Positions 2 to 48,094 of a stretch of 48,094 nucleotides of DNA are shown here, piece by piece. The stretch covers positions 1 to 48,094 of the forward strand of contig JAIBBF010000022.1 of assembly GCA_019694795.1 (NCBI GenBank). The letters run 5' to 3'. The notes beneath the pieces are model-generated. The model had not been told where the DNA came from and made no database searches. It saw only the letters and a program-made list of their open reading frames with translations. Numbering within the stretch: the first letter of the stretch is position 1; every line of letters begins with the position of its first letter. Source of the DNA: Flavobacteriales bacterium (GTDB lineage: Bacteria; Bacteroidota; Bacteroidia; Flavobacteriales_D; UBA2798). A program made the position numbers and the translations under genes.

Positions 2-787
2 GATGACGAACAGGCGAGTAAACTCGAAGAATTTCTTAAATCAAAAGTCAAAAGGATTAAAGCGTTTCAGGACGTAAAAAATATTTCTGGTTATTTGAAA
101 ACACCGGGAATTGATTCCTCATATAAAGAAAAATTTGAAGCGACTTTGACTGACATAATTAATCCTAATAAAAACAAAATTCCTTGGTTTGATATCAGAA
201 GATCATATGTTACTGAATTCATGTCCCAACTTCTACTTTCTAAGCAATTTCAATGTGTATTTTATGAGGAAGCTGATCGTAGAATGAATGCTGATGCAAT
301 TACTATCAAGAAGCACTCTCCGGGAATCGATGTAACTGGAGTTCGTAACGAAGGAGGAACCTTGAAATTTGTTGTGTGTGAGGTTAAGGCCTCAAAGGAT
401 AAAATACCAACTTCAAGCGCAGCAGATTTATTGGATGACATTAAAAAATCGTTGACCGATGAAAGCGATCGCTTGAGTAGTGAGATTTTATACTTTATGC
501 AGCAGTTACTAAACAAGGGAGAGTTCTTTGAACAAACTATTAATTTTCTCTTGAAGTGTTTGTCTGAAAAGGTAGAAAAGGGTATAGTGTTGGAAAACGT
601 GATCTTCTTTCCCTTTTTAATAAGAAACAACGAAGAAATTGTAAAAGATCAAAATGTTGATGATTATACTGAATTTGGGAATCATTCTTTTGATGATACT
701 TCTGTAAATGGAATTATATGGTCTTTCAATAAAGACATCGATGATTTTTGTATTTCAATTTGGGAGAATGCAGTAAATGAGCTCTGA
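2..787 (+). CDS. hamA: HamA-like (DUF1837) nuclease of a Hachiman defence system, 5' partial
   Basis: The reading frame is open to the first base of the window, so the N-terminus is missing; the TTG at 95 is not a convincing start because about 31 in-frame codons precede it. The visible 261 residues are soluble with no signal peptide. A PD-(D/E)xK-type nuclease signature is visible: Asp in GIDVTG (329-331), then Glu and Lys in the CEVKAS stretch (380-382 and 386-388). HamA proteins (DUF1837, also AbpA) are effector nucleases that cut DNA once released by their helicase partner. The gene overlaps the following helicase by 11 bases, which implies translational coupling and matches the hamA-hamB order of Hachiman loci. 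The assignment rests on architecture, motif and size; another nuclease of the same fold paired with a helicase is the main alternative. Confidence 0.72.
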   Translation, partial: DDEQASKLEEFLKSKVKRIKAFQDVKNISGYLKTPGIDSSYKEKFEATLTDIINPNKNKIPWFDIRRSYVTEFMSQLLLSKQFQCVFYEEADRRMNADAITIKKHSPGIDVTGVRNEGGTLKFVVCEVKASKDKIPTSSAADLLDDIKKSLTDESDRLSSEILYFMQQLLNKGEFFEQTINFLLKCLSEKVEKGIVLENVIFFPFLIRNNEEIVKDQNVDDYTEFGNHSFDDTSVNGIIWSFNKDIDDFCISIWENAVNEL

Positions 788-3700
788 AGCAAAGATAAAA
801 TACATTGATGATCAGATTAAATCATTGTTTGATTCAATCGGAGAGACTGTTCCTGATATTCTCTCAATACTGCATGCGAAAGAAAAGCACCATTTAATTC
901 ACAAATTTATTGATCAAACTGTCATTGATGAAAATTGGGAATCAATAAAGAGTAGAATTGACTTTAAAATTGACGTTATTGATACATTAACTTCATATTT
1001 GGTAGATAATTCTCAATTATATGAATCGTCAAATGAACGGAACAAAAGAAATATTATTCCTAAACTCTACAGTGTTTTATCTGATCTTTTTCTAATGAAG
1101 TCGGAAGAGATTCCAGATTTAACTTTTAATAAACTTGAATTTCTTGTTCTGTCTTGTGTTACCGGTGTTGCCGCAGAGAGAACAACTGAGATTGCAATGG
1201 TGGTTAAGGAGAATTCTTCTTGGATAAAGAAATTAGCCAAAGAAGATGACATGACTGAAATGAAAAAAGCAGTCTACATTATTGTAATTGGCTTATTGGA
1301 TAAGATTGAGAAGAGAGAACAGATTGAATGGTTTAATGAATTTATTAAGTCCTCTGAAACGCAACTTCAAAATTTGCAAGTTGAAGAGATGAAAACTGAA
1401 TCATTTTCAATTGAGAATGCGCTAATCATTGGTACTTTTAGCAATCTGTTGCATATAATTAATTCGCAAAGAGAGTATTTGTTTACAGGTAAATTGTCGT
1501 CAGGTGAAAAAGTCCGGGATATTATTCGTGATTACGGCTTTAACGCAATTGAACTTTCAAGAAGAACAGATGATAAAAATCTTCAAAGGCTTTGCTTTCA
1601 TCTTAGAAGAGCGTTCACTCAATTGAGTGATAACGCAATATGGACTTTAGCTGAGAGAAATCCGATATTCAAAGACTTCTTTGATAAAACCCTGAGTGGT
1701 AATGAAAATTTCTTTGTGACACTTTTCCCTTCACAAAGAAAATCGATACTTGACGTTTTAACCGCAAAGAAAAGTATTGTAGTAAATATGCCAACAAGCT
1801 CCGGCAAATCCTTATTGGCAGAAATGTATATCTTATTTACAATTCATACCCAAACGTTTAATAATGTTGAACCAACAGTTGCATATGTTGTTCCAACAAA
1901 TGCATTAATAAATCAAGTCAAGCACAGATTAAAACGACAATTTGCAGATAGATACTTAATTGAAAGTGTGCTTCCATTTTACGAAGAGGATTCCCTCGAA
2001 GAGGAATTTCTTAATAAAAAAACGCACATACATATTATTGTAACTACTCCTGAAAAATTGGACTTTTTGATCAGGAATGAAAGGCCTGTGGTAAAAAACC
2101 TAAAATTGGTAATCTTAGATGAAGCTCATAACCTTTCAAGTAAAAACAGAGGATCAAAGTTTGAACTTCTATTATCGATTATCAAACAAAAAACGTCCAA
2201 TGTCAATTTTTTACTTTTAAGTCCGTTCATAGATGAAAAGAACGCGCAGCAAATTGCAACGTGGCTTGGAGATACTGAAGAGAATTCAAGCACTATTAGT
2301 GTAGATTGGTCACCGACAAAACAATATATCGGTTGTAATACCTTAGAGTCAAATAAGACACAAAGTTTTGTTACGTATTTGCCCTCTCCAACAAATCAAA
2401 TTATTAAGGAAGAAGTAACTATTCCTCTAAATGTGAATTTGCAAAATCTCAAGACTACTTTAGGTCTTGATCGAGTTGATTCTAAGGTGAAGGTAATTGG
2501 GTTGTTAGAGAAATATATATCAATTGGAGAATCAACTTTGGTTTTTTGTGGAGGAATTACTTCGAGTCAGAATACTGCGATAAAAGCCAAGGAATATTTT
2601 AGAAACAAGGGGGTTTTGAAAAATATTTCTGATGACCCTGCTATTGCAAGATGTGTAACTGTAATAAAATACGAATCAAAGGAAGACGATCCTTTAATTG
2701 ATTGTATTGAGCATGGGGTTGCATACCATCATTCTGAATTAAGCGGATTAGTAAAGGAGGAAATTGAACTTTTAATTGCAATGGGGAAAATTAGACTTGT
2801 TTGCTCTACCCCCACTTTGGCACAAGGAATGAATTTTCCAATTTCTACAGTAATATTTGATACTTTATCAATTGGTCGGGATGAAGTTGATAACACGATG
2901 GACAATGCTACCTTTTGGAACATCGCTGGCAGGGCGGGGCGCGCTTACATGGACAAAGAAGGGCATATAATAATTGGTTACAGCACAAATAATGAAATAA
3001 CGAAGGAAGCTACAAAGCAATATATTGGTAAAAAAACTAAAGAAATTATTTCTTCACTGTCGCACTTTTTTGACGCAGTCGGAACGGACGTTGAATTTAA
3101 TCACGCCTTACTACGAAATAATCCTGCCGCATCTAATTTCCTGCAATACCTAAATCATATAATTAAAATCTCTTACAATTACGATTTAAATGCTGTCGAT
3201 TCTAATAAAATTAGAGCGATTTTAAATAACTCACTTTTTTATAAGCAAATTACCTTCAAGGAAGGATTCTTAGAAACAGAACAACGAATAAGCTCTTTTG
3301 CTTCTAAGTATGTTGATCATTTGAAAGGACAAAATAAGGCTAATTTAACTCTTGCCGATGTATTTGGAATTAGTAATATTAGCTTGAATGGAGTAATGGC
3401 AAGGATTATTGAATTCAAAAACGATCTTCAGGCAGAGGGTGTTCTCACCAATGAGAACTTGCATGTCTCAAAAATTATCCTTGAATCTAAGAACGAACAG
3501 AACTTAGCAAAAATTATATCGATAATAAGTGGCATTCCTGAATTGAAAGTTGCAATATTTAATCGTGCCGGAAAATTAGATGTAGAATCAATTTCAAAAA
3601 TACTCATAGGCTGGGTTAACGGAGAGCCAATCAATAAAATTGCTTCTAAGATTCAGAGGCAAAATCAAACGTTAGATCAAGCGATAGGAGAGACAAATAA

Positions 3701-4040
3701 GTATATTAATGGCAACCTCAAAAATTATTTGCCTTGGGGAATGAATATTTATCAAACCTTGACTGAAGATAATAAGAGTGAATCGGCCAAAATGCTTCCT
3801 TCATATATCTACTATGGAGTGAGTGATAAAGAGTCGGCCATTATTGCAAGTATAGGTATTCCGCGTTTTTTGGTAAACAATATTAAATCCAAAGTGAAGG
3901 AAAAGATGCAGAACGCTCCAATCACTGTTGAGAATTTCAATGAAATTAAGAAGATTATAAAGGAAACATCAGACTTCGGAATTGGTAAAGACTCAAACGA
4001 AAAAGCACAAATCAAAAAGATCATAGATAGTCACTTATAA
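777..4040 (+). CDS. hamB: HamB-like superfamily 2 DEAH helicase (Hachiman)
   Basis: This 1087-residue protein is a Ski2-like SF2 helicase. Motif I is TSSGKS (Lys344), motif II is DEAH (448-451), a motif V-like STPTLAQGMNFP follows, and motif VI reads AGRAGR (Arg719, Arg722). About 300 N-terminal residues and about 350 C-terminal residues have no motif I recognise and probably form regulatory or DNA-damage-sensing parts. HamB senses aberrant DNA and holds HamA inactive until its ATPase is triggered. The ATG at 777 lies inside the last codons of the nuclease gene, so the two are one transcription unit; its promoter is upstream of the window. Composition is A+T rich compared with the housekeeping genes to the right, consistent with transfer. 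Fairly sure of helicase, somewhat less of the system name. Confidence 0.8.
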   Translation: MSSEAKIKYIDDQIKSLFDSIGETVPDILSILHAKEKHHLIHKFIDQTVIDENWESIKSRIDFKIDVIDTLTSYLVDNSQLYESSNERNKRNIIPKLYSVLSDLFLMKSEEIPDLTFNKLEFLVLSCVTGVAAERTTEIAMVVKENSSWIKKLAKEDDMTEMKKAVYIIVIGLLDKIEKREQIEWFNEFIKSSETQLQNLQVEEMKTESFSIENALIIGTFSNLLHIINSQREYLFTGKLSSGEKVRDIIRDYGFNAIELSRRTDDKNLQRLCFHLRRAFTQLSDNAIWTLAERNPIFKDFFDKTLSGNENFFVTLFPSQRKSILDVLTAKKSIVVNMPTSSGKSLLAEMYILFTIHTQTFNNVEPTVAYVVPTNALINQVKHRLKRQFADRYLIESVLPFYEEDSLEEEFLNKKTHIHIIVTTPEKLDFLIRNERPVVKNLKLVILDEAHNLSSKNRGSKFELLLSIIKQKTSNVNFLLLSPFIDEKNAQQIATWLGDTEENSSTISVDWSPTKQYIGCNTLESNKTQSFVTYLPSPTNQIIKEEVTIPLNVNLQNLKTTLGLDRVDSKVKVIGLLEKYISIGESTLVFCGGITSSQNTAIKAKEYFRNKGVLKNISDDPAIARCVTVIKYESKEDDPLIDCIEHGVAYHHSELSGLVKEEIELLIAMGKIRLVCSTPTLAQGMNFPISTVIFDTLSIGRDEVDNTMDNATFWNIAGRAGRAYMDKEGHIIIGYSTNNEITKEATKQYIGKKTKEIISSLSHFFDAVGTDVEFNHALLRNNPAASNFLQYLNHIIKISYNYDLNAVDSNKIRAILNNSLFYKQITFKEGFLETEQRISSFASKYVDHLKGQNKANLTLADVFGISNISLNGVMARIIEFKNDLQAEGVLTNENLHVSKIILESKNEQNLAKIISIISGIPELKVAIFNRAGKLDVESISKILIGWVNGEPINKIASKIQRQNQTLDQAIGETNKYINGNLKNYLPWGMNIYQTLTEDNKSESAKMLPSYIYYGVSDKESAIIASIGIPRFLVNNIKSKVKEKMQNAPITVENFNEIKKIIKETSDFGIGKDSNEKAQIKKIIDSHL

Positions 4041-4592: not shown

Positions 4593-6455
4593 TTGAACGT
4601 GTTCGTCCGCTCGCTCATCACGGTCCTCCTTATTTCGCTTTTTTCAGTACAAGGCGTCAGGGGCCAGATTGTTTCTTCTAAGGGAATAAGCAAGAGCCAG
4701 AATCTCGATACTGCCATAGCAGATGCCGAACGTTTTTTGGCGAATGTGGCATTCAGGAATGATTCGGCCAAAGTATTTAAAGCTTATTGTTTTTTAGCGG
4801 AACAATACACGCTGAAAAGTCGTTACCCCAAAGCCGAAAAATACATTGCGCAGGCGGCACAAATTGCCAATGCATCAGGGAATCTGGTTCAGCAAGCTTA
4901 TGTATTACTCGAAACGGCCAATCTTAAAAAATACGAAAGCAAATTTTCGGAAGCGTTGGATGCTTATCTGCAAGCGGAATCTATTTTGTTGCGCGAAAAT
5001 ACCATCAGCGAATTACCCCGTTTTCAATTGGAGATTGCAGAATTTTACCGGAAAACGGCCCAACATGCCAAGGCGAAAAACTATTTGCAACAGGCCTTCG
5101 ATAATTACGAAAAATCGCAATTGCGCGATACCCTTCTCTTAATACGAATGAATAACCGGGCTGCGGCGATTCATAATGAGTCGACCCCCGATGTGCGGGT
5201 TTCCATTTATTATTCCCGGCGGGCGTTGGATTTAGCGAAACGGATTAAGGACCGCAACCTGATGGCTACCTCCGAGAATGAGTTGGGCTTTACCTATAAG
5301 AATTTGCGTCAAAACGATAGTTCAGAATATTATTATCAGGAGGCAGAAAAAAACTGGTTTGCAGTGGGAAATTACAGCGACGGAATTCACGCCATGAATA
5401 ATCGTGCCATGCTTTACGCACATAATAATTTTTCGCGCGATTCCGTTTTCCGGATTTATTTTCAGATTATCGATAAAGTTGAAAAAGATAAAATTGATTA
5501 TCCACTCAATGAAGTCTATCATTATTTATACCTGGAAAACATTTGGTCGGGCGATACAGGGAAAGCGATTTCCTATCTCGAAAAATACCATTCCGCCGAA
5601 ATGATTATGGAACGGAAAATGAATGATATCGATTTGTTGAATGTGCGCGAGAAATACGAGAATGAAAAAATTAAAAATGCATATCAAAAAGTTTCGGATG
5701 AGTTAAACAAATCAAACCAGGATATTATCACTCACCAACGTGAAAATGTAAGACTTCTCGTTTTTTTAGGTGGACTCCTCATTGCTTTGGTCATCATTAT
5801 AACCCTCACCTATAAATTGAGGTCCTCCAATAAAGAATTGCGCGCTAAAAACAAGGAAAAGGACTCCCTCATTCAGGAAATTCATCACCGTGTGAAAAAC
5901 AATTTGCAGTTCATCAGTTCATTGGTGAATATGCAAATGAAGGCCAGCGAAAATGCAGATGAAATTCACACGCTATCGGATGCTTCGCGCAGAATTAATG
6001 CTATGGCGCTGGTGCATGAAATGTTGTATAATCAGGATGAACAACAAGGGATTTCGGTGAAGCTATATTTGGAGGAATTGATTGATTCGCTGAAAGACAT
6101 TGTTCAGTCCGACTCCAATCCGATCGAATTTATTACCCACATTAAAGAAATAAATTTTACCGTTCAGGAGGCCATTTCATTGGGGATGATTACTTCTGAA
6201 ATTGTAGCAAATTCCATTAAACATGCTTTTGCGGATGTTGATCAACCACAAGTGAAAATTTTGCTGGAGGAATTGGAATCGAAAAAAATCCGCTACACCA
6301 TTTCCGATAACGGAAACGGATTCAATACCACTACATCCAGAAAATCAAGTTTGGGATTAAGGTTGATCGATATTTTTTCGCGTCAATTAAAAGGAGCCTA
6401 TTCCATTGAGGGGAATAATGGTTTTAGCTATACGATTACGTTTAATATTAAATAA
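4593..6455 (+). CDS. TPR sensor histidine kinase, HisKA_2 family
   Basis: A 620-residue membrane kinase. It begins with a signal-peptide-like hydrophobic stretch (residues ~5-24) and then helical TPR-type repeats (~40-330) likely to lie in the periplasm. One transmembrane segment (~386-408) and a short coiled coil follow. The dimerisation domain carries EIHHRVKNNLQ with phospho-acceptor His432 (or 431), and the ATPase domain has the N box at Asn540 and the G1 box DNGNGF at Asp572. The next gene is the cognate LytTR regulator, starting one base after this stop. The start is unusual: an in-frame ATG at 4578 is followed two codons later by a stop, leaving TTG 4593 or GTG 4599 as the only starts that keep the signal peptide. 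The ligand is unknown. Confidence 0.9.
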   Translation: MNVFVRSLITVLLISLFSVQGVRGQIVSSKGISKSQNLDTAIADAERFLANVAFRNDSAKVFKAYCFLAEQYTLKSRYPKAEKYIAQAAQIANASGNLVQQAYVLLETANLKKYESKFSEALDAYLQAESILLRENTISELPRFQLEIAEFYRKTAQHAKAKNYLQQAFDNYEKSQLRDTLLLIRMNNRAAAIHNESTPDVRVSIYYSRRALDLAKRIKDRNLMATSENELGFTYKNLRQNDSSEYYYQEAEKNWFAVGNYSDGIHAMNNRAMLYAHNNFSRDSVFRIYFQIIDKVEKDKIDYPLNEVYHYLYLENIWSGDTGKAISYLEKYHSAEMIMERKMNDIDLLNVREKYENEKIKNAYQKVSDELNKSNQDIITHQRENVRLLVFLGGLLIALVIIITLTYKLRSSNKELRAKNKEKDSLIQEIHHRVKNNLQFISSLVNMQMKASENADEIHTLSDASRRINAMALVHEMLYNQDEQQGISVKLYLEELIDSLKDIVQSDSNPIEFITHIKEINFTVQEAISLGMITSEIVANSIKHAFADVDQPQVKILLEELESKKIRYTISDNGNGFNTTTSRKSSLGLRLIDIFSRQLKGAYSIEGNNGFSYTITFNIK

Positions 6456-6456
6456 A

Positions 6457-7149
6457 ATGAACAACACGCGGATTTTGATAGTTGAGGATGAAATTCTGAT
6501 TGCGGAGGATTTAAAAGATACGCTTTTTGATTTAGGATTTTCACAGGTAGATATGGCGCATGACCGGAAATCTGCTATTGAAATGATTCATACGATGAAT
6601 CCACAAATTGTGTTATTGGATATCCGGATGGAGGGAGAAACCGACGGACTGGAAATTGGTAAGTTCATTGCTGAAAATACGAAACAGCCTTTTATTTACA
6701 TTACTGCACATTCGGATGTGGCCATGGTGAAGGAAATCGTGAAAACAAGACCGGAAGGTTACATCACCAAGCCGGTGAAAAAGTCGGATTTATTTGCTGC
6801 TATTTCACTCGCTTTACAAAAGGTAAAAGTCGAAGATCGGCCCAAATCCATCAGCATTAAGGATGGATATTCTAATGTATTGATCCAGCTGGATAAAATA
6901 TTATTTGTTGAGGCCGAAGGTAATTATCTCAATATCGTTTGTGAAGATCGCCGTTATGTTTCGAGGCAGTCGATGGAGTCAATCATGGAGGAAATGAATG
7001 ATGAACGTTTTTTCCGTATTCACCGTTCTTATTTTGTAAACACGCAAAAAATTCTAAAATACTCTAAAAAAGAAATTCAGATCGGAATCTATAAATTACC
7101 GGTTTCCCGTAATATTGGGAACGAATTTGAAGCGCGAATGCTAAAATAA
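6457..7149 (+). CDS. LytTR-family response regulator
   Basis: A 230-residue protein with an N-terminal receiver domain (acidic pocket E10-D11, phosphorylated Asp55 in LLDIRM, conserved Lys in ITKPVKKSD) and a C-terminal LytTR DNA-binding domain from about residue 130. The ATG at 6457 is chosen because the receiver domain begins directly there (MNNTRILIVEDE); an in-frame ATG at 6406 would only add residues encoded inside the kinase gene. The gene starts one base after the kinase stop, so they form a two-gene signalling operon. LytTR regulators usually bind direct repeats near target promoters; no target can be named. The unit ends at a hairpin at 7152-7171. Confidence 0.93.
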   Translation: MNNTRILIVEDEILIAEDLKDTLFDLGFSQVDMAHDRKSAIEMIHTMNPQIVLLDIRMEGETDGLEIGKFIAENTKQPFIYITAHSDVAMVKEIVKTRPEGYITKPVKKSDLFAAISLALQKVKVEDRPKSISIKDGYSNVLIQLDKILFVEAEGNYLNIVCEDRRYVSRQSMESIMEEMNDERFFRIHRSYFVNTQKILKYSKKEIQIGIYKLPVSRNIGNEFEARMLK

Positions 7150-7151
7150 AA

Positions 7152-7171
7152 CGGGGACTGTTAGGTCCCCG
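7152..7171. terminator. Bidirectional terminator between convergent operons
   Basis: A 7-bp GC-rich stem CGGGGAC / GTCCCCG has a TGTTAG loop. Read on the minus strand it is followed at once by TTTTATTTTAG, so it is best suited to end the efflux/PepSY operon. On the plus strand a TATTTTTTT run follows after about ten bases. Confidence 0.8.
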
Positions 7172-7179
7172 CCTTATAA

Positions 7180-7596
7180 CTATTTTTTTAGTTGTCCATC
7201 CGGACTAAACAACACATCTGTTTTTTTCCCATTTATTTTAGCTTCTGTTTCGTAATAAACAGTGCCGTCGGCCATTGTAATTTTAGCGGCCTCGAGAATT
7301 TTAGCTGTGGGATAATTGGATTTAAATGCGTCCTGAACTTTTTGCGGAAGTTCATTTATTTCCAATTCTGTTTCTGTTTCCAGAAGTGTTGCAGATGGAG
7401 AGAAGGTGGCCGACATTTCCTGATCATTCAGAATAAATTCAGCTTCATAATTTCCATCTTCTTCTTTTTCCCATTTCACTTTTTTGGCATTGGGAAATTT
7501 TTGTTCAAATGCAGATTCAATTGCATCCGGAACTTCAAAGGCCATTACCTGATTGCTGAGCAATGCAATGACCAGTATAAAAAATAACTTTTTCAT
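7180..7596 (-). CDS. Secreted PepSY-like (DUF2874 type) protein
   Basis: The 138-residue product has a clean signal peptide (MKKLFFILVIALLSNQVMA) and two PepSY-like halves. The first carries FPNAKKVKWEKEEDGNYEAEF; the second carries YPTAKILEA and YYETEAKINGKKTDVLF and ends with a DGQL turn. Proteins of this type are periplasmic in Bacteroidota and are thought to bind or inhibit partners; no enzyme activity is expected. The ATG at 7596 is preferred over one 14 codons upstream because the signal peptide begins there. It is the last gene of the minus-strand efflux cluster, 42 bases after the preceding gene, and is followed by a hairpin terminator. Confidence 0.82.
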   Translation of the reverse strand: MKKLFFILVIALLSNQVMAFEVPDAIESAFEQKFPNAKKVKWEKEEDGNYEAEFILNDQEMSATFSPSATLLETETELEINELPQKVQDAFKSNYPTAKILEAAKITMADGTVYYETEAKINGKKTDVLFSPDGQLKK

Positions 7597-7638
7597 GTTG
7601 ATTGATTTTAAATTGAAACGAAGCGATTGATAAAACAA

Positions 7639-8028
7639 TCAGCAGGACGGTGGTTTCAATAGCTTCGGAATAAATTCGAAATGAAAAAGATTCCGGTATT
7701 CCGGTGTATTCCAATGAAGCGAAAGGGATGAAATGAATCCGTCAACTTTATTGGATTGAGCGATATAAACGGAAGGAATTACAATTTTATGTTCGATTCC
7801 CTTATGCGGTTTTTGCTCATCGCCATGGTTGTGTGCATCAAATATGCCGTCGAAATTGATCAAGTGATCGCTGATAAAATCGACCCAGGTCATGTCTTTA
7901 TCTTCCTGCGATTTACAATGGTGATACATCTCCGGTAATTCGGCCAGATAGCTAAAATCGCCCTTTGGTAATAGAAATACACCTAGGGAATAAAACGATA
8001 ACAGCAAATATAGAATGGCCTTTTGCAT
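7639..8028 (-). CDS. Small His/Asp-rich exported protein of unknown function
   Basis: A 129-residue protein with a hydrophobic N-terminus (residues ~4-21, signal peptide or anchor). It then has LPEMYHHC, an aromatic FISDHLINFDG stretch, and a cluster of His and acidic residues, DAHNHGDEQKPHKGIEH, ending in KPPSC. I recall similar small proteins in Bacteroidota, often near cation-efflux genes, but no function is established. His and Asp spacing suggests metal or proton handling; this is inference. It lies 142 bases after the outer-membrane efflux gene and 42 before the PepSY-like gene, so it may be the fifth gene of the operon or have its own promoter in the 8029-8170 gap. Confidence 0.65.
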   Translation of the reverse strand: MQKAILYLLLSFYSLGVFLLPKGDFSYLAELPEMYHHCKSQEDKDMTWVDFISDHLINFDGIFDAHNHGDEQKPHKGIEHKIVIPSVYIAQSNKVDGFISSLSLHWNTPEYRNLFHFEFIPKLLKPPSC

Positions 8029-21420: not shown

Positions 21421-21454
21421 AAAAAAAAAGGTCGGCAATTAGCCGACCTTTTTT
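21421..21454 (-). terminator. Intrinsic terminator of the small-lipoprotein cluster
   Basis: GGTCGGC (21430-21436) and GCCGACC (21442-21448) form a stem with an AATTA loop, flanked by a long A run on the left and T run on the right. On the minus strand the left A run becomes the T-tract, so it ends the minus-strand lipoprotein genes; it could also act as a second stop for sdhB transcripts. Confidence 0.9.
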
Positions 21455-21472: not shown

Positions 21473-21724
21473 TTATTCGCCTTTGAGTTCTTTTTCACAC
21501 TCTTTCATTACTTCTTCGATTTCGCCTTGAGCAGCTTTGTCATCTTTGTACTTAGTCTCCATCTCTTCGCCCATTTTCATACAGCTTTCGAGTTTAGACA
21601 TGTCTTTCATAGCTTCTTTCATGCAATCACAGAATTTCTGACCGTCAGCTTTAGCACCGCCGCCGCCGCAAGAAGTAAGAGCAAGAGCAGAGATAACTGC
21701 TACTGAGAAAAATACCTTTTTCAT
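21473..21724 (-). CDS. Small four-Cys lipoprotein (A) of a tandem family
   Basis: An 83-residue exported lipoprotein. Signal peptide MKKVFFSVAVISALALTSC ends at the lipid-bearing Cys, followed by a glycine run and a highly charged helical body. Four further cysteines are spaced CxC-x13-C-x27-C (FCDCMKEAMKD...ESCMKM...KECEKE). The ATG at 21724 is chosen because it starts the signal peptide; upstream codons in the same frame are not protein-like. Last of four adjacent small lipoprotein genes and followed by a terminator. I do not recognise a named family; two disulphides pinning a helical hairpin are a reasonable guess. Confidence 0.85.
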   Translation of the reverse strand: MKKVFFSVAVISALALTSCGGGGAKADGQKFCDCMKEAMKDMSKLESCMKMGEEMETKYKDDKAAQGEIEEVMKECEKELKGE

Positions 21725-21890
21725 GGTTTGTGGATTAAGTTTGTTAAAGGGTTTATGCTTTGAAATTAGAAAAAAATCGTGAATTCCAATAAAATGTGAA
21801 AAAAAAGGAGCGAAAAGGGGCGATTTTTGTTGTTTGAAGGACCTAAACAAGCAGGTTTCAAAATCGGCGAGGCGCTCAAAAAGGCTTATT

Positions 21891-22142
21891 TCAGCGGTTT
21901 TCCGGTTGCTCATAAACAGCGCAACGGATAATTTCTTCGGCGTAGGTTTTGGCGTCCTTCGGATCTTTTAAATATTCTTTGTGTTCGGCTGCTAATTCTG
22001 CACATTCATTTAACTTATTCTGATCTGAGCCTGCTTCCAGAAAACATTTGCAATAAGCGCGGGCCATTTCTTTGGGATTGGAAGAAGAACAGGAAAAGAG
22101 AAAAAATAAAAATAAGGGACTTAATTTTTTAATCGCATTCAT
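21891..22142 (-). CDS. Small four-Cys lipoprotein (B) of a tandem family
   Basis: An 83-residue lipoprotein: hydrophobic leader with lipobox FFLFSCSSS, then a charged helical body with CxC-x13-C-x26-C (YCKCFLEAGSDQ...NECAELA...IRCAVY). The Cys spacing is the same as in the neighbour at 21473-21724 within one residue, although the other residues differ. Start at ATG 22142 (MNAIKKLSP) is preferred; an ATG at 22154 would add four residues. It overlaps the end of the upstream gene by 14 bases, so the two are probably translationally coupled. Function unknown. Confidence 0.75.
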   Translation of the reverse strand: MNAIKKLSPLFLFFLFSCSSSNPKEMARAYCKCFLEAGSDQNKLNECAELAAEHKEYLKDPKDAKTYAEEIIRCAVYEQPENR

Positions 22143-22383
22143 CGGTCTTTTCATAAATGATGTTCATTTTTTCTTTATCGGTACCATAAGCGCTCTGCGC
22201 TTCAGATTCCAGCATGACGATTTCGTCGACAAGTTTTTTCTTTTCTTCTTCGGTTTTGGCCGACTGAATTTTATGATTGAGTTCGCACCATTGTTCGGCG
22301 TATTTTTCCGGACTGGTGGAGCATGCGCTCAGCAACAGACTAACGACAATTGAGAAATGCAGCGTCGAATTCTTTTTCTTCAT
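22129..22383 (-). CDS. Small lipoprotein (C), divergent member of the array
   Basis: An 84-residue lipoprotein with signal peptide and lipobox SLLLSACSTS. The body is helical and Lys/Glu rich. It retains only a first Cys (EQWCELNHK) and a final Cys near the end (KTDECD), and lacks the second Cys of the CxC pair and the middle Cys seen in its neighbours. It overlaps the gene before it by 44 bases and the one after by 14. Same size class and position, so probably a diverged member; function unknown. Confidence 0.72.
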   Translation of the reverse strand: MKKKNSTLHFSIVVSLLLSACSTSPEKYAEQWCELNHKIQSAKTEEEKKKLVDEIVMLESEAQSAYGTDKEKMNIIYEKTDECD

Positions 22384-22570
22384 CGGTGCCCTTGTATTTT
22401 TTTGTGTACTTATTAAGCAGATTCATGCATTCGTTCATTTTTGTAGTGGCAGCTTCACCTTTCAGGTGATAAACTTCATCATAACATTCGCAAACTTCAC
22501 GCGCATCACGTTCTGGTCCGCAGGAACCCAGTAGACTTAACAATAACAGACTAAACAGAAAAATTCTCAT
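22340..22570 (-). CDS. Small four-Cys lipoprotein (D), first gene of the array
   Basis: A 76-residue lipoprotein. The leader MRIFLFSLLLLSLLGSC ends at the lipid Cys and the body has CxC-x18-C-x26-C (EVCECYDEVYHLKG...MNECMNLL...LNCR), the same pattern as genes A and B with a longer first loop. It is the first gene in transcription order, overlapping the next by 44 bases. The short gap to the divergent aminotransferase gene (22571-22668) should carry its promoter, but no clear TAnnTTTG box was found on the minus strand. Confidence 0.75.
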   Translation of the reverse strand: MRIFLFSLLLLSLLGSCGPERDAREVCECYDEVYHLKGEAATTKMNECMNLLNKYTKKYKGTDEEKEFDAAFLNCR

Positions 22571-42640: not shown

Positions 42641-45600
42641 TTATTTAACCCCTTCTTCGTTAACGGTAATCCCGTTTTTACCGGTTGGTTTAATGCCTCC
42701 CGCTTTTTCCTTTTTCTTAGCCTCCTCTTCAGCAGCTTTTTTCTTGGCTTCTTCTTCGGCTTTTTTCTTTGCGGCCGCTTCTTCAGCTTTCTTCTTAGCA
42801 GCTTCCTGTTGCGCTTTTTGTTGTGCTTCTTGTTGCGCTTTCTGCTGCGCTTCTTGTTGGGCCTTGCGTTGTGCTTCTTCCTGTGCTTTACGTTGCGCTT
42901 CCTGGTTCGCTTTGTTTTGTGCATCCTGGTTCGCCTTACGCTGTGCTTCTTCCTGCGCTTTACGTTGTGCTTCTTCCTGAGCTTTGCGTTGTGCTTCTTC
43001 CTGCGCTTTACGTTGTGCTTCCTGGTTATCCTGACGCGCTTTTAAACCAGCTTCACATTGAGCGATTTTTTCGCGTGGATAAGATTCATTCGGCTTGTAG
43101 CTAAGGGCTTTTTCGTATTGTTTTTTCGCAATTACAAATTTCCCTTCGTTATAGGCTTTATCACCTTCGGTGATGGCATCGTTATACGCTTTGTTCGGAT
43201 CGATGGATTGACCACCCTGCTGAACGTTGTTGTTTCCGCCGGACTGTGTGTTTTTGTTGTTTCCATGATCGTCATCATCGTTGTTATGATTACCGTTATT
43301 TCCGTTGCCGCTATTGCCATTATTTCCATTCCCATTATTCCCGTTTCCGTTGTTGCCGTTGCCCTGATTGTTAACGCATGATCCGAGATAATCTCCATGA
43401 TCAAGATGCGCTTGCAAGGCACTTAAAGGAATGTTAATGGTTTGCGGATTATTGGTGTTTCCGGGAGGAAGGTGACAAATAGTAACGGTGCTGTCTTCAA
43501 CAACATTGTTATTACCATGGTCATCGTCGTCATCGTCATTGTGATTTCCGTTGTTGCCATTGTTTCCATTGTTATGATCATCATCGTCATCATGATCTCC
43601 ATTGTTGTTATGGTCGTCATCATCTTCGTGGTGACCATTACCATTATTTTGGTTGTTGGTCGGACATGCACCCAACGCATCACCATGTGCCTGGTGAGCA
43701 GCCCATGCGCTTAATGGGATAGTGATGGTTTGCGGGTTGTTCGGGTTGCCCGGAGGGATGTGACAAATGGTGATGGTGCTATCGGAATTGTTATTACCAT
43801 TTTCGTTGTTGCCATTTCCATTGTTGCCGTTATTTCCATTCCCGTTATTTTGGGTGTTGGTCGGACAAGCACCTAATACATCACCATGTGCCTGGTGGGC
43901 AGCCCATGCGCTTAATGGAATAGTAATGGTTTGCGGGTTGTTCGGATTACCCGGAGGGATGTGACAAATGGTGATGGTGCTATCGGAATTGTTATTACCA
44001 TTTCCGTTATTGCCATTGTTACCATTATTTCCATTATTACCGTTGCCATTGTTATTTACAGGAGGCGTATACGTTACGGTAAAGTTTTTATATGCATTAC
44101 CGCAATCGCCGCGAACTGCAATCTGAATGGTATTGCTTCCTTGTGGTAACGTCATGGCACAAGAAATACCTGGATTTCCTGTATAAGTACAAACTGCAAG
44201 TGAATTCAGATTTACCGTAATCACATTGTTTGTTCCACCAATTACATTCGCAATCACAGTAAAATTAGGATCACTTACGGTGATGTTCTGGCTGGTTGGA
44301 TTAACCATGTTAATGGTAGGAGCAGTACAAGGTTGCGATGTGATGTTGATGGTTTTGGTATCGCTTCCGCAAGGACCATTTACACTAACAACAATGGTGT
44401 TTGCACCTTGAGTCAGAGAAACGGATCCGCTGAATATTCCACCACTGTATGAAACATTAACCGGGTTACCATTAATGGTAGCGCTTAAAGTTGTGCCGTT
44501 GAAATTACTTACCATACCGGTTAAACCTAATGAAGTTGCCGTAGTGGTATTACCGTTTTGGTTGATCTGATCGAGTGTAATTTCTGGTGCAAGACAAGGT
44601 GTGTAGATAATGGTAAAGCTTTCGCTGTCGTTACCGCAAGAGCCGCTTACCGATACGGTAATGTTATTGGTACCTGCATTTAAATTCAGTCCCGCAGTTA
44701 TAGAACTGCCATCGAAATTAGAAGCAACAGTGCTTCCGTTTAATGTAACGGTTGCAGTGGTGTTGTTTCCGTTTTGAACCATGGCAGCAAGGTTGAAGTT
44801 CGCTGCGCTAACATTGGTAGAATTTCCTGATGGTTGGCTCATGATAATTTGCGGAGCAAGACAAGGCTGATAAGTGATCGTGGTTTGATCCGTTGCTTGT
44901 CCGTCATTATTGGTACCGGTAATTACAATCGTATTTAAACCTGCGTTTAATGTAATGCTTGCGCTAAACTGGTCTGTATTCGGATCGTAGGTAAAGTTGC
45001 TGTTCGCATTTCCATTCACCATGAACGATACATTCGATGAGCTGCTCACATTGGTGATTACTGCTGTAACGTTTGTTGTAGCATTAGCCGTAACTGTTCC
45101 ATTTTGTGGTGCAGTGATGTTTACTGTTGGAGGAACAAGCGGACGATTATACGTAATGCTGATGTTATCGCTTGCATTTCCACAATTACTTCCGGCGCTG
45201 ATTTCAACAAAGTTACTTCCGTCGATCAATGTAATTGATGCAGATACTTGTCCGTTGTTAAACGTGAATGGAACACTGTTACCATTCAATTTTACGGTGA
45301 TTGCATTTTGATTGGTGACATTCGTAACTGTTGCAGTAACTGTTGCTGATGAATTGCTTACTGTAGAATTCGCAGCAGGAGAAGTGATGCTAACCGTTGG
45401 GGGATTACATGGAGCTACATACTGATAGATGATGGTATGTGATTCAGAATCTGTTCCATCTGCATTTGTTCCGATGATTTCAATGGTGTTTGTTCCGGCA
45501 ACCAATGTAATGTTGGCTCCAAATACATCGCTGGTTGCATTATAGGTAAATGCAGTACTGGTAACACCGTTTACTTTAAAGGTGATATCTGATGCACCGT

Positions 45601-48094
45601 TTACATATTGAACGGTTGCTGCAATAGCAATATTTGCCGTTTGTGAAGTGTAAGGGTCAGTAGCAGGTGATGTAATGGTTACAACCGGTGGTTGTAAAGG
45701 ACGGTTGTAATTAATGGTGAAGTTGGCTACTTCGGTTCCGCAATTGTTCGTTGAAGAAACTTCGAAGGTATTGGAACCATCAACCAATGTAACTGCAGCA
45801 GTTAATACATGTGTAGTTGCATTGTAATTGAATGGTTTGTTTACACCATTTTGTTTTACAGAAATCTGTGCTTGTGTTGCATTTAATACGGCTGCCTGTA
45901 AAGTGTAGTTTGCACTGCTAACCGTTTCTGAAGTGGTGGCAGGTGCTACCATTGTAATTACAGGATTGTTACAAGGAGCTACAACAGGTTGGTAGATAAT
46001 CGTTGTGCTTTGCGAATCGCTTCCGTCGGTATTTACCGCAGAAATAGTGAACACATTATTTCCTTGTGCCAGCGTAACCGAACTGGAGAAAATATCTGTA
46101 TTCGGATCGTAGGTAAAGTTGGTAGAATTAACTCCGTTAATGGTGTAAGTTACATTCGACGCTCCTGTGATATTCAGAATTTTTGCCGTAATGGTATAAT
46201 TAGCTACCGTACTGGTGTAAGGATTTTGTCCTGGATTAAGAATAGTAACTACAGGAGGTAATAGCGGACGATTATAAGTTACACTTATCGCTGAAGTGGA
46301 TGTTCCGCAATTGTTGAGTGCAATAATTTCAACGGTGTTGCTTGGATTCACCAGGGTGATGTTTCCAATAAAGCTGCCATTTGCTGAATTGAATGTAAAT
46401 GGCAACGCTTGTCCGTTTAATTTAAAGGTGATGTTATTGGCGCTGGTCACATTTAAAATGGTAGCCGTTACTGCCAATGAACTTGTTCCGGTGGTGTAAG
46501 TGGTTCCGGATGGGTTGGTCATTACAATTACCGGTTGTTGACATGGAGGAGCAACAGGTTGATACATGATCACTGTGCTTTTCGAATCGCTACCGTCGTT
46601 GTTTGTACCTGTAATCTCTACTGTATTTGCTCCGGTAACCAGGTTAATGTTGGCGCTAAACTGTGTGCTTTGCGGATTAAATGTAAATGCGGTAGAAGGC
46701 ACACCATTCACCTTAAAGGTGATGTTGGATGCAGCTGCTACATGTTGCACAGTTGCGTTGATGGTGGTGCTGGACGTGGTGGATGTATACGGATTGCTGG
46801 ATGGGTTGGTAATGGTAACCACCGGTGGCACCAATGGAGCTTGGTAGTAAATCAATACCGATTGTGTAGCCATTCCGCAATTGTTGGTCGCTTTTAATTC
46901 AACCGTATTGCTGGCACCGCTTAAAGCTAAGGTTGCGTTTACCGTTCCGCTGTTCGGATCGAATGTAAATGGATAACTGTTCCCGTTTAATTTAAATGTA
47001 ATCGCACTTTGGTTGCTGATGTTTTGTACGATTGCAGTAAACGGTAAATTGGAAAGTGAAGTCTGGAAGTTGATACTTGCAGGTTGAATCAGTGTAATGG
47101 TTGGTGCATTACAAGGAATCGAGTAATTAATGGTTTGCGATTCACTTGCCGTTCCGTAATTGTTGCTTGCCGAAATTTCGTACACATTCGATCCTGGATT
47201 TAATGTTACGTTGGCAAGGAAAACATGCGTGCTGATATTATAGCTAAAGTTGCTGCTGGGAACACCATTAATTTTAAATGTAATTTGATTTGCAGCCGTC
47301 ACATTCAATACCGAAGCAACAATAGAAGCATTCGGATTGGTGGTAGCATATGGATCAACAGAAGGGTTGGTGATGGTAACCACAGGAGGAACACCTGTTG
47401 TGTTTTTCTGGTAGATGATGGTTGTGCTGGCAACATCGGTACCTACCTGATTGGTTCCGGTAATCTGCACCACATTTGAACCTTGCAATAAGGTAGCCGT
47501 AAAGCTTACCACTTTTGTGTTGGTATTGTAAGTGAAATTATTTACCGGATTGCCATTTAGTTTTACGGTAATGTTACTTTGACCCGCAACATTCAATACA
47601 GTAGCTTTTACAAGTTTAGTATTGGTAGTGGTGGTGTAAGGATTTACTGCAGGATCGGTAAAGGTAACTACCGGTGGTAATGCAGTTTGCTTAACGTAAA
47701 TAATGGTGGTGGCTTTAATGTCGGTACCCGCGCTATTGGTGGCTTTAATTTCAAATGTATTTGCACCGTCAATCAGCGATGAAACGATGTTCATCACCTT
47801 CGTGGTGGTGTTATAGGTAAAATTAGAGCTGAGCTGACCATTAATTTTCAACGTAATGTCGGCCGCAGAATTTACATTTAACACAGTAGCATCTACGCTG
47901 GCAGAGTTAACGTAAACGGTGTATGGATTTAAAGTAGGATTGGTAATGGTTACAACCGGAGGCTGAACAACCTGTACCGGCTGGTAATTGATTACAACAC
48001 TTTTCTGATCCTGACCCGCATTGTTCACCGCTTTAATTTCGATGGTGTTGGGACCAGGATTTAAACTGATCACACTTGAGAATGCACGGGTAGA
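42641..48094 (-). CDS. Giant Ig-like repeat surface protein with Cys/His motifs and TPR/coiled-coil tail, 5' partial
   Basis: The frame is open to the right window edge (codons before 48073 read STRAFSS), so the N-terminus and signal peptide lie outside. At least 1817 residues are visible. From the N-terminal side: about 14 complete Ig-like repeats of ~92 residues plus one partial (~44060-48094), each with a PVVTITNP-type opening, an FKINGVPSSNFTYN-type middle and a NTVEIxGTNxDG end; an N/G/D/H-rich linker (43210-44060) with three CHIPPGNP motifs; one TPR-like helical pair (TEGDKAYNEGKFVIAKKQYE; ~43041-43203); and a long A/Q/E/K coiled coil (42690-43030) ending in a Lys-rich tail. No type IX secretion C-terminal domain is seen. 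Adhesion or a structural surface role is inferred; function unknown. Confidence 0.85.
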   Translation of the reverse strand, partial: STRAFSSVISLNPGPNTIEIKAVNNAGQDQKSVVINYQPVQVVQPPVVTITNPTLNPYTVYVNSASVDATVLNVNSAADITLKINGQLSSNFTYNTTTKVMNIVSSLIDGANTFEIKATNSAGTDIKATTIIYVKQTALPPVVTFTDPAVNPYTTTTNTKLVKATVLNVAGQSNITVKLNGNPVNNFTYNTNTKVVSFTATLLQGSNVVQITGTNQVGTDVASTTIIYQKNTTGVPPVVTITNPSVDPYATTNPNASIVASVLNVTAANQITFKINGVPSSNFSYNISTHVFLANVTLNPGSNVYEISASNNYGTASESQTINYSIPCNAPTITLIQPASINFQTSLSNLPFTAIVQNISNQSAITFKLNGNSYPFTFDPNSGTVNATLALSGASNTVELKATNNCGMATQSVLIYYQAPLVPPVVTITNPSSNPYTSTTSSTTINATVQHVAAASNITFKVNGVPSTAFTFNPQSTQFSANINLVTGANTVEITGTNNDGSDSKSTVIMYQPVAPPCQQPVIVMTNPSGTTYTTGTSSLAVTATILNVTSANNITFKLNGQALPFTFNSANGSFIGNITLVNPSNTVEIIALNNCGTSTSAISVTYNRPLLPPVVTILNPGQNPYTSTVANYTITAKILNITGASNVTYTINGVNSTNFTYDPNTDIFSSSVTLAQGNNVFTISAVNTDGSDSQSTTIIYQPVVAPCNNPVITMVAPATTSETVSSANYTLQAAVLNATQAQISVKQNGVNKPFNYNATTHVLTAAVTLVDGSNTFEVSSTNNCGTEVANFTINYNRPLQPPVVTITSPATDPYTSQTANIAIAATVQYVNGASDITFKVNGVTSTAFTYNATSDVFGANITLVAGTNTIEIIGTNADGTDSESHTIIYQYVAPCNPPTVSITSPAANSTVSNSSATVTATVTNVTNQNAITVKLNGNSVPFTFNNGQVSASITLIDGSNFVEISAGSNCGNASDNISITYNRPLVPPTVNITAPQNGTVTANATTNVTAVITNVSSSSNVSFMVNGNANSNFTYDPNTDQFSASITLNAGLNTIVITGTNNDGQATDQTTITYQPCLAPQIIMSQPSGNSTNVSAANFNLAAMVQNGNNTTATVTLNGSTVASNFDGSSITAGLNLNAGTNNITVSVSGSCGNDSESFTIIYTPCLAPEITLDQINQNGNTTTATSLGLTGMVSNFNGTTLSATINGNPVNVSYSGGIFSGSVSLTQGANTIVVSVNGPCGSDTKTINITSQPCTAPTINMVNPTSQNITVSDPNFTVIANVIGGTNNVITVNLNSLAVCTYTGNPGISCAMTLPQGSNTIQIAVRGDCGNAYKNFTVTYTPPVNNNGNGNNGNNGNNGNNGNGNNNSDSTITICHIPPGNPNNPQTITIPLSAWAAHQAHGDVLGACPTNTQNNGNGNNGNNGNGNNENGNNNSDSTITICHIPPGNPNNPQTITIPLSAWAAHQAHGDALGACPTNNQNNGNGHHEDDDDHNNNGDHDDDDDHNNGNNGNNGNHNDDDDDDHGNNNVVEDSTVTICHLPPGNTNNPQTINIPLSALQAHLDHGDYLGSCVNNQGNGNNGNGNNGNGNNGNSGNGNNGNHNNDDDDHGNNKNTQSGGNNNVQQGGQSIDPNKAYNDAITEGDKAYNEGKFVIAKKQYEKALSYKPNESYPREKIAQCEAGLKARQDNQEAQRKAQEEAQRKAQEEAQRKAQEEAQRKANQDAQNKANQEAQRKAQEEAQRKAQQEAQQKAQQEAQQKAQQEAAKKKAEEAAAKKKAEEEAKKKAAEEEAKKKEKAGGIKPTGKNGITVNEEGVK
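42800..43030 (-). repeat. 24-bp degenerate repeats encoding AQRKAQEE coiled coil
   Basis: The DNA is a run of related ~24-bp units that encode AQRKAQEE / AQQKAQQE / ANQEAQRK octads near the C-terminus of the giant protein, giving a long charged helix. Low complexity makes the other strand and frames look open as well. Confidence 0.8.
43376..43477 (-). repeat. Cys/His 34-residue motif, copy 3
   Basis: Encodes C-HLPPGNTNNPQTINIPLSA-LQAHLDHGDYLGS-C. It keeps Cys1, His2, the two His and Asp of HxxHGD, and Cys34 seen in copies 1 and 2, but differs at about a quarter of residues. Confidence 0.85.
43664..43765 (-). repeat. Cys/His 34-residue motif, copy 2
   Basis: Encodes CHIPPGNPNNPQTI... AAHQAHGDALGAC. 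Nearly identical at DNA level to copy 1 at 43865-43966, so it is a recent duplication together with the flanking STITI strand. Confidence 0.88.
43865..43966 (-). repeat. Cys/His 34-residue motif, copy 1
   Basis: Encodes CHIPPGNPNNPQTI... AAHQAHGDVLGAC; differs from copy 2 by one residue. The fixed Cys1, His2, His24, His27, Asp29 and Cys34 could form a disulphide or a metal site. Confidence 0.88.
44060..48094 (-). repeat. Tandem Ig-like domain repeats
   Basis: About 275-bp units in tandem encode ~92-residue beta-sandwich repeats, 14 complete and one cut by the window edge. From the fifth visible repeat on, domains with two Cys (one in a PC linker before the domain, one in NNCG) alternate with domains lacking Cys (NNDG); the last three all have Cys. 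Confidence 0.85.

Follow-up and report, generated by a model that had tools for sequence, protein, structure and literature searches.

A previously undescribed, tandemly expanded family of small lipoproteins with a conserved cysteine code in Bacteroidota

The Lipoprotein Array and Its Setting

The window analysed here is a stretch of 48,094 nucleotides from the genome of a Flavobacteriales bacterium (3.4 Mb, 99.9% complete). It contains an array of four genes of 76-84 codons, all on the minus strand, each of which encodes a precursor with a lipobox-type signal peptide. The first in the array is gene D (22340..22570, 76 aa), in which the lipid Cys is followed by CxC-x18-C-x26-C. Next come gene C (22129..22383, 84 aa), gene B (21891..22142, or up to 22154 with an alternative start; 83 aa, CxC-x13-C-x26-C) and gene A (21473..21724, 83 aa, CxC-x13-C-x27-C). 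Recomputing these spacings from the sequence gave the values that the initial annotation had reported for A, B and D, and agreed with its description of gene C as similar in size with only two cysteines. These are the first and last of the code (C1 and C4, where C1-C4 are the four cysteines after the lipid Cys), separated by 49 residues. The same annotation had all four genes overlapping by 14-44 bases, which is correct only for D and C (44 nt) and for C and B (14 nt); A lies 166 bp beyond B, without overlap.

A promoter specific to A may lie in the gap between B and A (21725..21890, minus strand), where by eye we spotted a candidate resembling TTG-N18-TAATTTCA. Downstream of A, the sequence GGTCGGC-TAATT-GCCGACC forms a strong terminator-like hairpin with a T-run behind it (21424..21454, minus strand; -21.7 kcal/mol, z = -4.6). 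No strong hairpin with a T-run was found between D, C, B and A, and it is thus plausible that one terminator is shared by all four, as had been proposed, although A could also have a promoter of its own. The hairpin could be used in either direction, in which case it would also face sdhB.

The array is flanked on one side by genes for a PLP aminotransferase and an omega-amidase-like hydrolase, and on the other by a convergent succinate dehydrogenase operon. The closest named relatives of the SdhB encoded in the window are from Flavobacteriales and Flavobacterium (82-84%). In each of 80 named genomes inspected around SdhB, the array is absent from that place.

Two other features of the window were recorded. 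At 95-4040 on the plus strand is a two-gene candidate anti-phage defence system, Hachiman-like, with a 1087-aa helicase (PADLOC PDC-M23B, E = 9.6e-151; Hachiman HamB, E = 1e-61) and a 230-aa partner (PDC-M23A, E = 2.5e-7). At 42641-48073 on the minus strand, a gene that reaches almost to the end of the window encodes a very large repetitive protein of exported type, with many repeats and N/G-rich linkers.

Homology Among the Four Genes

Pairwise similarity among the four proteins is low; a single search of the same genome with gene A matched B at E = 6.6e-6. Because signal peptides draw false matches, all residues up to the lipid Cys were cut off before profiles were built, and we refer to what is left as the mature domain. 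We then built a profile from 25 mature domains with four Cys, every one of them from outside the bacterial family to which the window belongs. It scored A at 32.4, D at 31.0, C at 25.8 and B at 22.7 bits, with a mild ascertainment bias, as the sequences in it had originally been picked up by an earlier profile that combined A, B and D with their relatives in bacterial family f1. Shuffled sequences with the cysteines held in place scored 15.6 bits at most, and none of 300 reached the real score for any of the four proteins. Thus, the similarity extends past the cysteine code. Searched against the whole genome, the mature-only profile matched exactly five places, namely A-D and, on a different contig (G000:C26:11340-11585), a paralogue of C type. 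We conclude that A, B, C and D are true homologues. The initial annotation was right that they share little sequence between the cysteines when compared pair by pair, but it understated a likeness that the profile detects. Gene C is a member of a coherent two-Cys subfamily with relatives of its own, rather than a decayed copy.

Short sequences are prone to low complexity, and spurious matches can arise from signal peptides alone, so that short open reading frames with common lipoboxes and incidental cysteines might in principle produce such a pattern by chance. Against this, the mature-only profile beats all of the Cys-fixed shuffles and matches just the five places genome-wide. Moreover, both synteny and overlaps are kept in a genome of the same genus (G001), in which the order D-C-B-A, with overlaps of 41 and 14 nt, lies between the same aminotransferase and sdhB. 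We regard the probability of an artefact as practically negligible.

Extent and Distribution of the Family

Among the loci examined there were 86 distinct matches to the family, one of them false (YidC), which leaves 85 members. The initial annotation had named homologues that never carry the spacing as evidence against its proposal. We find the opposite, in that 76 of the 85 carry the code C1-x-C2-x(9-23)-C3-x(25-28)-C4, with 9-23 residues between C2 and C3 and, in 75 of the 76 CxC-C-C members, 25-28 between C3 and C4. Of the deviating members, seven keep just C1 and C4, one carries an additional Cys, and L185 is missing C3 and C4. Genes A, B and D carry the full code, and gene C, like the rest of its subfamily, carries C1 and C4. 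The lipid Cys is present in all 39 aligned members; in one relative (L253) a membrane anchor takes its place. The proteins are acidic, with a median pI of 4.75.

Within the order, 71 of 399 genomes (~18%) are positive with the mature-only profile. Across a sample of about 395 genomes of the phylum the profile matched the window's own genome. Beyond that it gave only two partial matches, in frames of 604 codons, which we put down to chance; one of these frames reads as YidC. The family is restricted to one order of Bacteroidota, probably Flavobacteriales.

The initial annotation had called the family undescribed, and our searches agree. No match above cut-offs was obtained in Pfam, NCBIfam, PHROGs, PADLOC or, by sequence, the PDB; in PHROGs the matches were weak only, and no PADLOC model matched A-D at E <= 1. 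Structure searches with AlphaFold models of A and D returned no PDB match better than E = 1.5, the top match of D, a Vibrio membrane-localisation four-helix domain, being too weak for use. Gene D had no match in a plasmid collection, and literature searches found no description of the family. We therefore consider it a real and previously undescribed family.

Several loci contain related or adjacent lipoproteins of other types. Five small CxC lipoproteins are arrayed at 5680-7791 of locus L159 (genome G083) and about seven at 4969-7510 of L167 (G012); in some members of these arrays the inserts are longer (up to about 125 aa) or a second copy is fused on, and the superfamily is probably wider than the profile captures. 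In bacterial family f10 we observed two-Cys relatives at L172 and L173, among them one gene (L173:758-1288) with two domain copies in tandem. Two small Cys lipoproteins of a different code (C...CxC...C, 'EYCSCTQEKFEAKYP') are encoded at 5138-5932 on the minus strand of L035 (G002:C27); they are profile-negative and possibly represent another undescribed family. Adjoining a family member at L168 (G012:C189; 4677-5063, minus strand) is a gene for a lipoprotein with terminal EEGKCEEGKC repeat units, possibly metal-binding.

Predicted Fold, Cysteine Pairing and Location

AlphaFold models, which rest on the four sequences of the window proteins, predict a three-helix bundle for A and D with a pLDDT of about 90-95 over the mature parts. 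The predicted helices span residues 24-40, 42-58 and 63-80 in A (about 90 pLDDT across the mature part) and 19-34, 38-59 and 65-75 in D (mean pLDDT 84). In both models C1 and C2 are placed on helix 1 and C3 on helix 2, and C4 falls at the end of helix 3 or close to it. The earlier description of the proteins as helical is supported by these models.

Pairing of the cysteines is suggested by the way in which they are lost. In a 39-row alignment, 34 members have all four, five lack exactly C2 and C3, and none lacks just one. The loss is seen in the C clade and separately in bacterial family f10, and thus perhaps reflects two events. Because C2 and C3 disappear together while C1 and C4 are kept, the pattern points to C1-C4 and C2-C3 pairs; L185, which lies beside an intact copy and lacks C3 and C4, goes against this rule. 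Two disulphides in a three-helix fold are likely on these grounds, and so is the earlier suggestion that the proteins are disulphide-pinned.

The cysteines could instead bind a metal (Zn, Cu or Fe), in which case the proteins would act as periplasmic metal chaperones or traps. The predicted bundle holds the CxC and the two other cysteines at a similar level, the genes of bacterial family f9 lie in a SUF neighbourhood (see below), and the host genome encodes neither DsbB nor VKOR. However, a coherent clade that includes gene C keeps C1 and C4 only, which fits two independent pairs better, and His, Met and Asp are never invariant. Nor can an exported apo-protein acquire a cytoplasmic SUF cluster through Sec, and we count this against metal binding as well. 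We take the possibility seriously, although we think it unlikely, and favour the two disulphides. Absence of DsbB and VKOR does not refute them, because disulphides are documented in the periplasm of Flavobacterium johnsoniae, including by way of a CxC motif (PMC12635249). Within the order, only two of 249 genomes were positive for VKOR. The family offers a clean test of how disulphides form outside the cytoplasm in an order that almost lacks VKOR and whose genome sampled here has no DsbB either.

The initial annotation placed the proteins on the cell surface. Using published definitions of the Bacteroidota surface lipoprotein export signal, LES (PMC5080379), we tested for X-K-(D/E)2, Q-A-(D/E)2, SDDDD and SDDFE after the lipid Cys. 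None of these known signals is present in A-D, whose mature sequences start GGGGA, SSSNP, STSPE and GPERD, respectively, and the claim is thus unsupported. Only one of 39 members, gene A of G001 (KKDDP), fits a signal. A periplasm-facing anchor is therefore the default.

Age, Expansion and Selection

The D-C-B-A order is shared with G001, in which only 10 bp separate B from A, versus 166 bp in the window. The array is also syntenic in a genome of the same bacterial family (G002), which has D and B together with five A-like genes and a further fragment. In G012, from another family, about seven such genes are arrayed next to the same aminotransferase, and one array of five is present in a genome of family f3. 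In the tree, which has several long tips and rests on a short alignment, D groups with all f3 genes of D type (96/93), a C clade (96/89) takes in a relative from an f9 genome, and B lineages group together (97/93) and with f11 (92/86). In f3 the orthologue of D is a single gene, and D is likely the ancestral copy. B and C also predate the genus. The proposal of an old tandem duplication is borne out by the shared gene order and by the age of the B, C and D lineages, all of which predate the genus.

When the window's genome is compared with G001, dN is 0.41-0.65 for the lipoproteins and 0.06 for SdhA and SdhB. The corresponding dN/dS is about 0.17 for B and 0.23 for C, rough estimates given that dS is saturated. 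The genes of the array evolve fast under purifying selection.

High dN, tandem expansion in several lineages and the small size and acidity of the proteins are also what might be expected if the array served to diversify lipoproteins for immunity or exclusion, acting in toxin immunity, phage superinfection exclusion or lysozyme inhibition. There is in addition a faint likeness to Spackle, the small helical protein with which phage T4 inhibits lysozyme in the periplasm, yet the likeness is lost when signal peptides are removed. A dN/dS well under 1 speaks against such a function, as do the single copies in f3 and f9, which are well conserved and have housekeeping neighbours. Neither toxin nor secretion genes were seen beside the arrays, and the defence and phage collections gave no match (PADLOC) or weak matches only (PHROGs). 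We find an immunity or exclusion role decidedly unlikely.

Association With SUF Genes and Possible Role

In bacterial family f9, which may be Flavobacteriaceae, the lipoprotein gene adjoins the SUF iron-sulphur operon, lying next to sufA in divergent orientation or else immediately 3' of sufE (sufE, sufS and sufA were identified by Pfam). A first set of 15 f9 loci was SUF-linked, and a prospective test on fresh f9 loci found the link in 15 of 17. The two exceptions are tandem pairs located elsewhere, and for one of these genomes another locus is SUF-linked. Altogether, the link is present in 30 of the 31 f9 genomes with a strong four-Cys match that were examined, from nine genera; this count leaves out G227 (C-type), G241 and G217 (weaker or partial matches), and the loci seen in G227 and G241 have no SUF link. 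Part of the association may be explained by gene order inherited within f9. At L249 (G709), tandem lipoproteins lie beside sufA, one like the sufE-linked type (QPR motif) and the other nearer the sufA-linked type; in this arrangement the SUF-linked pair may have kept its ancestral state.

The association is not universal. Neighbours in f3 are aldehyde dehydrogenase and RidA genes or dnaJ-rpiB (both in L156), the window array lies between sdhB and the aminotransferase, and no one neighbour is common to all loci.

Thiol exchange with the gliding or type IX secretion machinery is another conceivable role for a periplasmic CxC. SprF exchanges a disulphide with GldK through its Cys-Xaa-Cys tail, and thus a working periplasmic CxC thiol exchange exists in the same order (PMC12635249); by analogy, the lipoproteins, which probably face the same compartment, could be exchange partners of this kind. 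The CxC of the family, however, is inside a predicted helix and accompanied by two further conserved cysteines, the surroundings of the f9 and f3 loci examined contain no recognisable gld, spr or por genes, and only about 18% of the order's genomes have the family. A part in this machinery is highly unlikely in our estimation.

With a probability of roughly 0.6, we favour a tandem-expanded family of small lipoproteins that form a two-disulphide, three-helix periplasmic module with an original role linked to SUF. Each protein would be exported and lipid-anchored, facing the periplasm. Helix 1, carrying C1 and C2, would be clamped to helix 3 through C1-C4 and to helix 2 through C2-C3, and the resulting mini-bundle may serve an envelope partner as a small acidic module with a binding or adaptor function. 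Translational coupling, at least of D-C-B, would allow the array to yield four diverged versions together. The SUF link would tie the original role to redox, sulphur or iron stress in the envelope and not to carbohydrate uptake or defence, and this is the weakest step of the model.

For a candidate function, SUF is nevertheless the best lead. More specifically, the lipid-anchored CxC-C-C bundle might sense or buffer redox state or metals in the envelope in the service of SUF, and some lineages would have made diversified operonic arrays from it. We consider this version unlikely; if true, it would add a periplasmic component to a system thought to be purely cytoplasmic. The neighbour clue itself, in 30 of 31 f9 genomes, is strong and connects an envelope lipoprotein with iron-sulphur assembly. 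Should the link reflect inherited gene order only, the value of the family would lie in adding a model to the family collections and in allowing many 'hypothetical proteins' to be named. Small lipoproteins are often missed by annotation, and this family is old and near-invariant in its cysteine geometry.

Comparison With Known Systems

The matches that looked stronger, to PG1828, BamJ, Lpp/OprI and Spackle, rest on signal peptides or fade after their removal. For example, the PG1828 family likewise consists of small Bacteroidota lipoproteins, and its likeness to gene A is limited to the signal peptide and lipobox (NF050142, residues 1-26 only, 24.4 bits versus a cut-off of 50). TIGR04454 (Lepto_4Cys), which from its name we take to describe small Leptospira lipoproteins with four cysteines, resembles the family, by name, as small lipoproteins with four extra cysteines. 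Of the 39 members, one touches this model (E = 0.0011; cut-off 35 bits), and in the host genome nothing exceeds the cut-off, the best weak matches falling outside the array.

Phage T4 Spackle presumably has no lipid anchor. It is small, all-helical and periplasmic and has a Cys pair (PF25676; PDB 6x6o), but unlike the family it has no CxC. Its structure comprises five helices and one loose Cys29-Cys81 pair (PMC7650644). A relationship was rejected, as the similarity present with signal peptides is gone with the mature-only profile.

The twin cysteines of SprF/PorG are like those of the family in forming a periplasm-facing CxC in the same bacterial order (PMC12635249). They differ in position, being in the C-terminal tail of an outer-membrane-spanning protein, whereas the CxC of the family is in the helical bundle of a lipoprotein.

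Alpha-hairpinin and CHCH-type proteins are cysteine-pinned helical hairpins with nested disulphides (C1-C4 and C2-C3). Neither Pfam nor the PDB links the family to them. The nested pairs that we propose here would be alike, but the family is predicted to have three helices and has its CxC on one helix, in place of the CX3C or CX9C pairs of the alpha-hairpinin and CHCH proteins.
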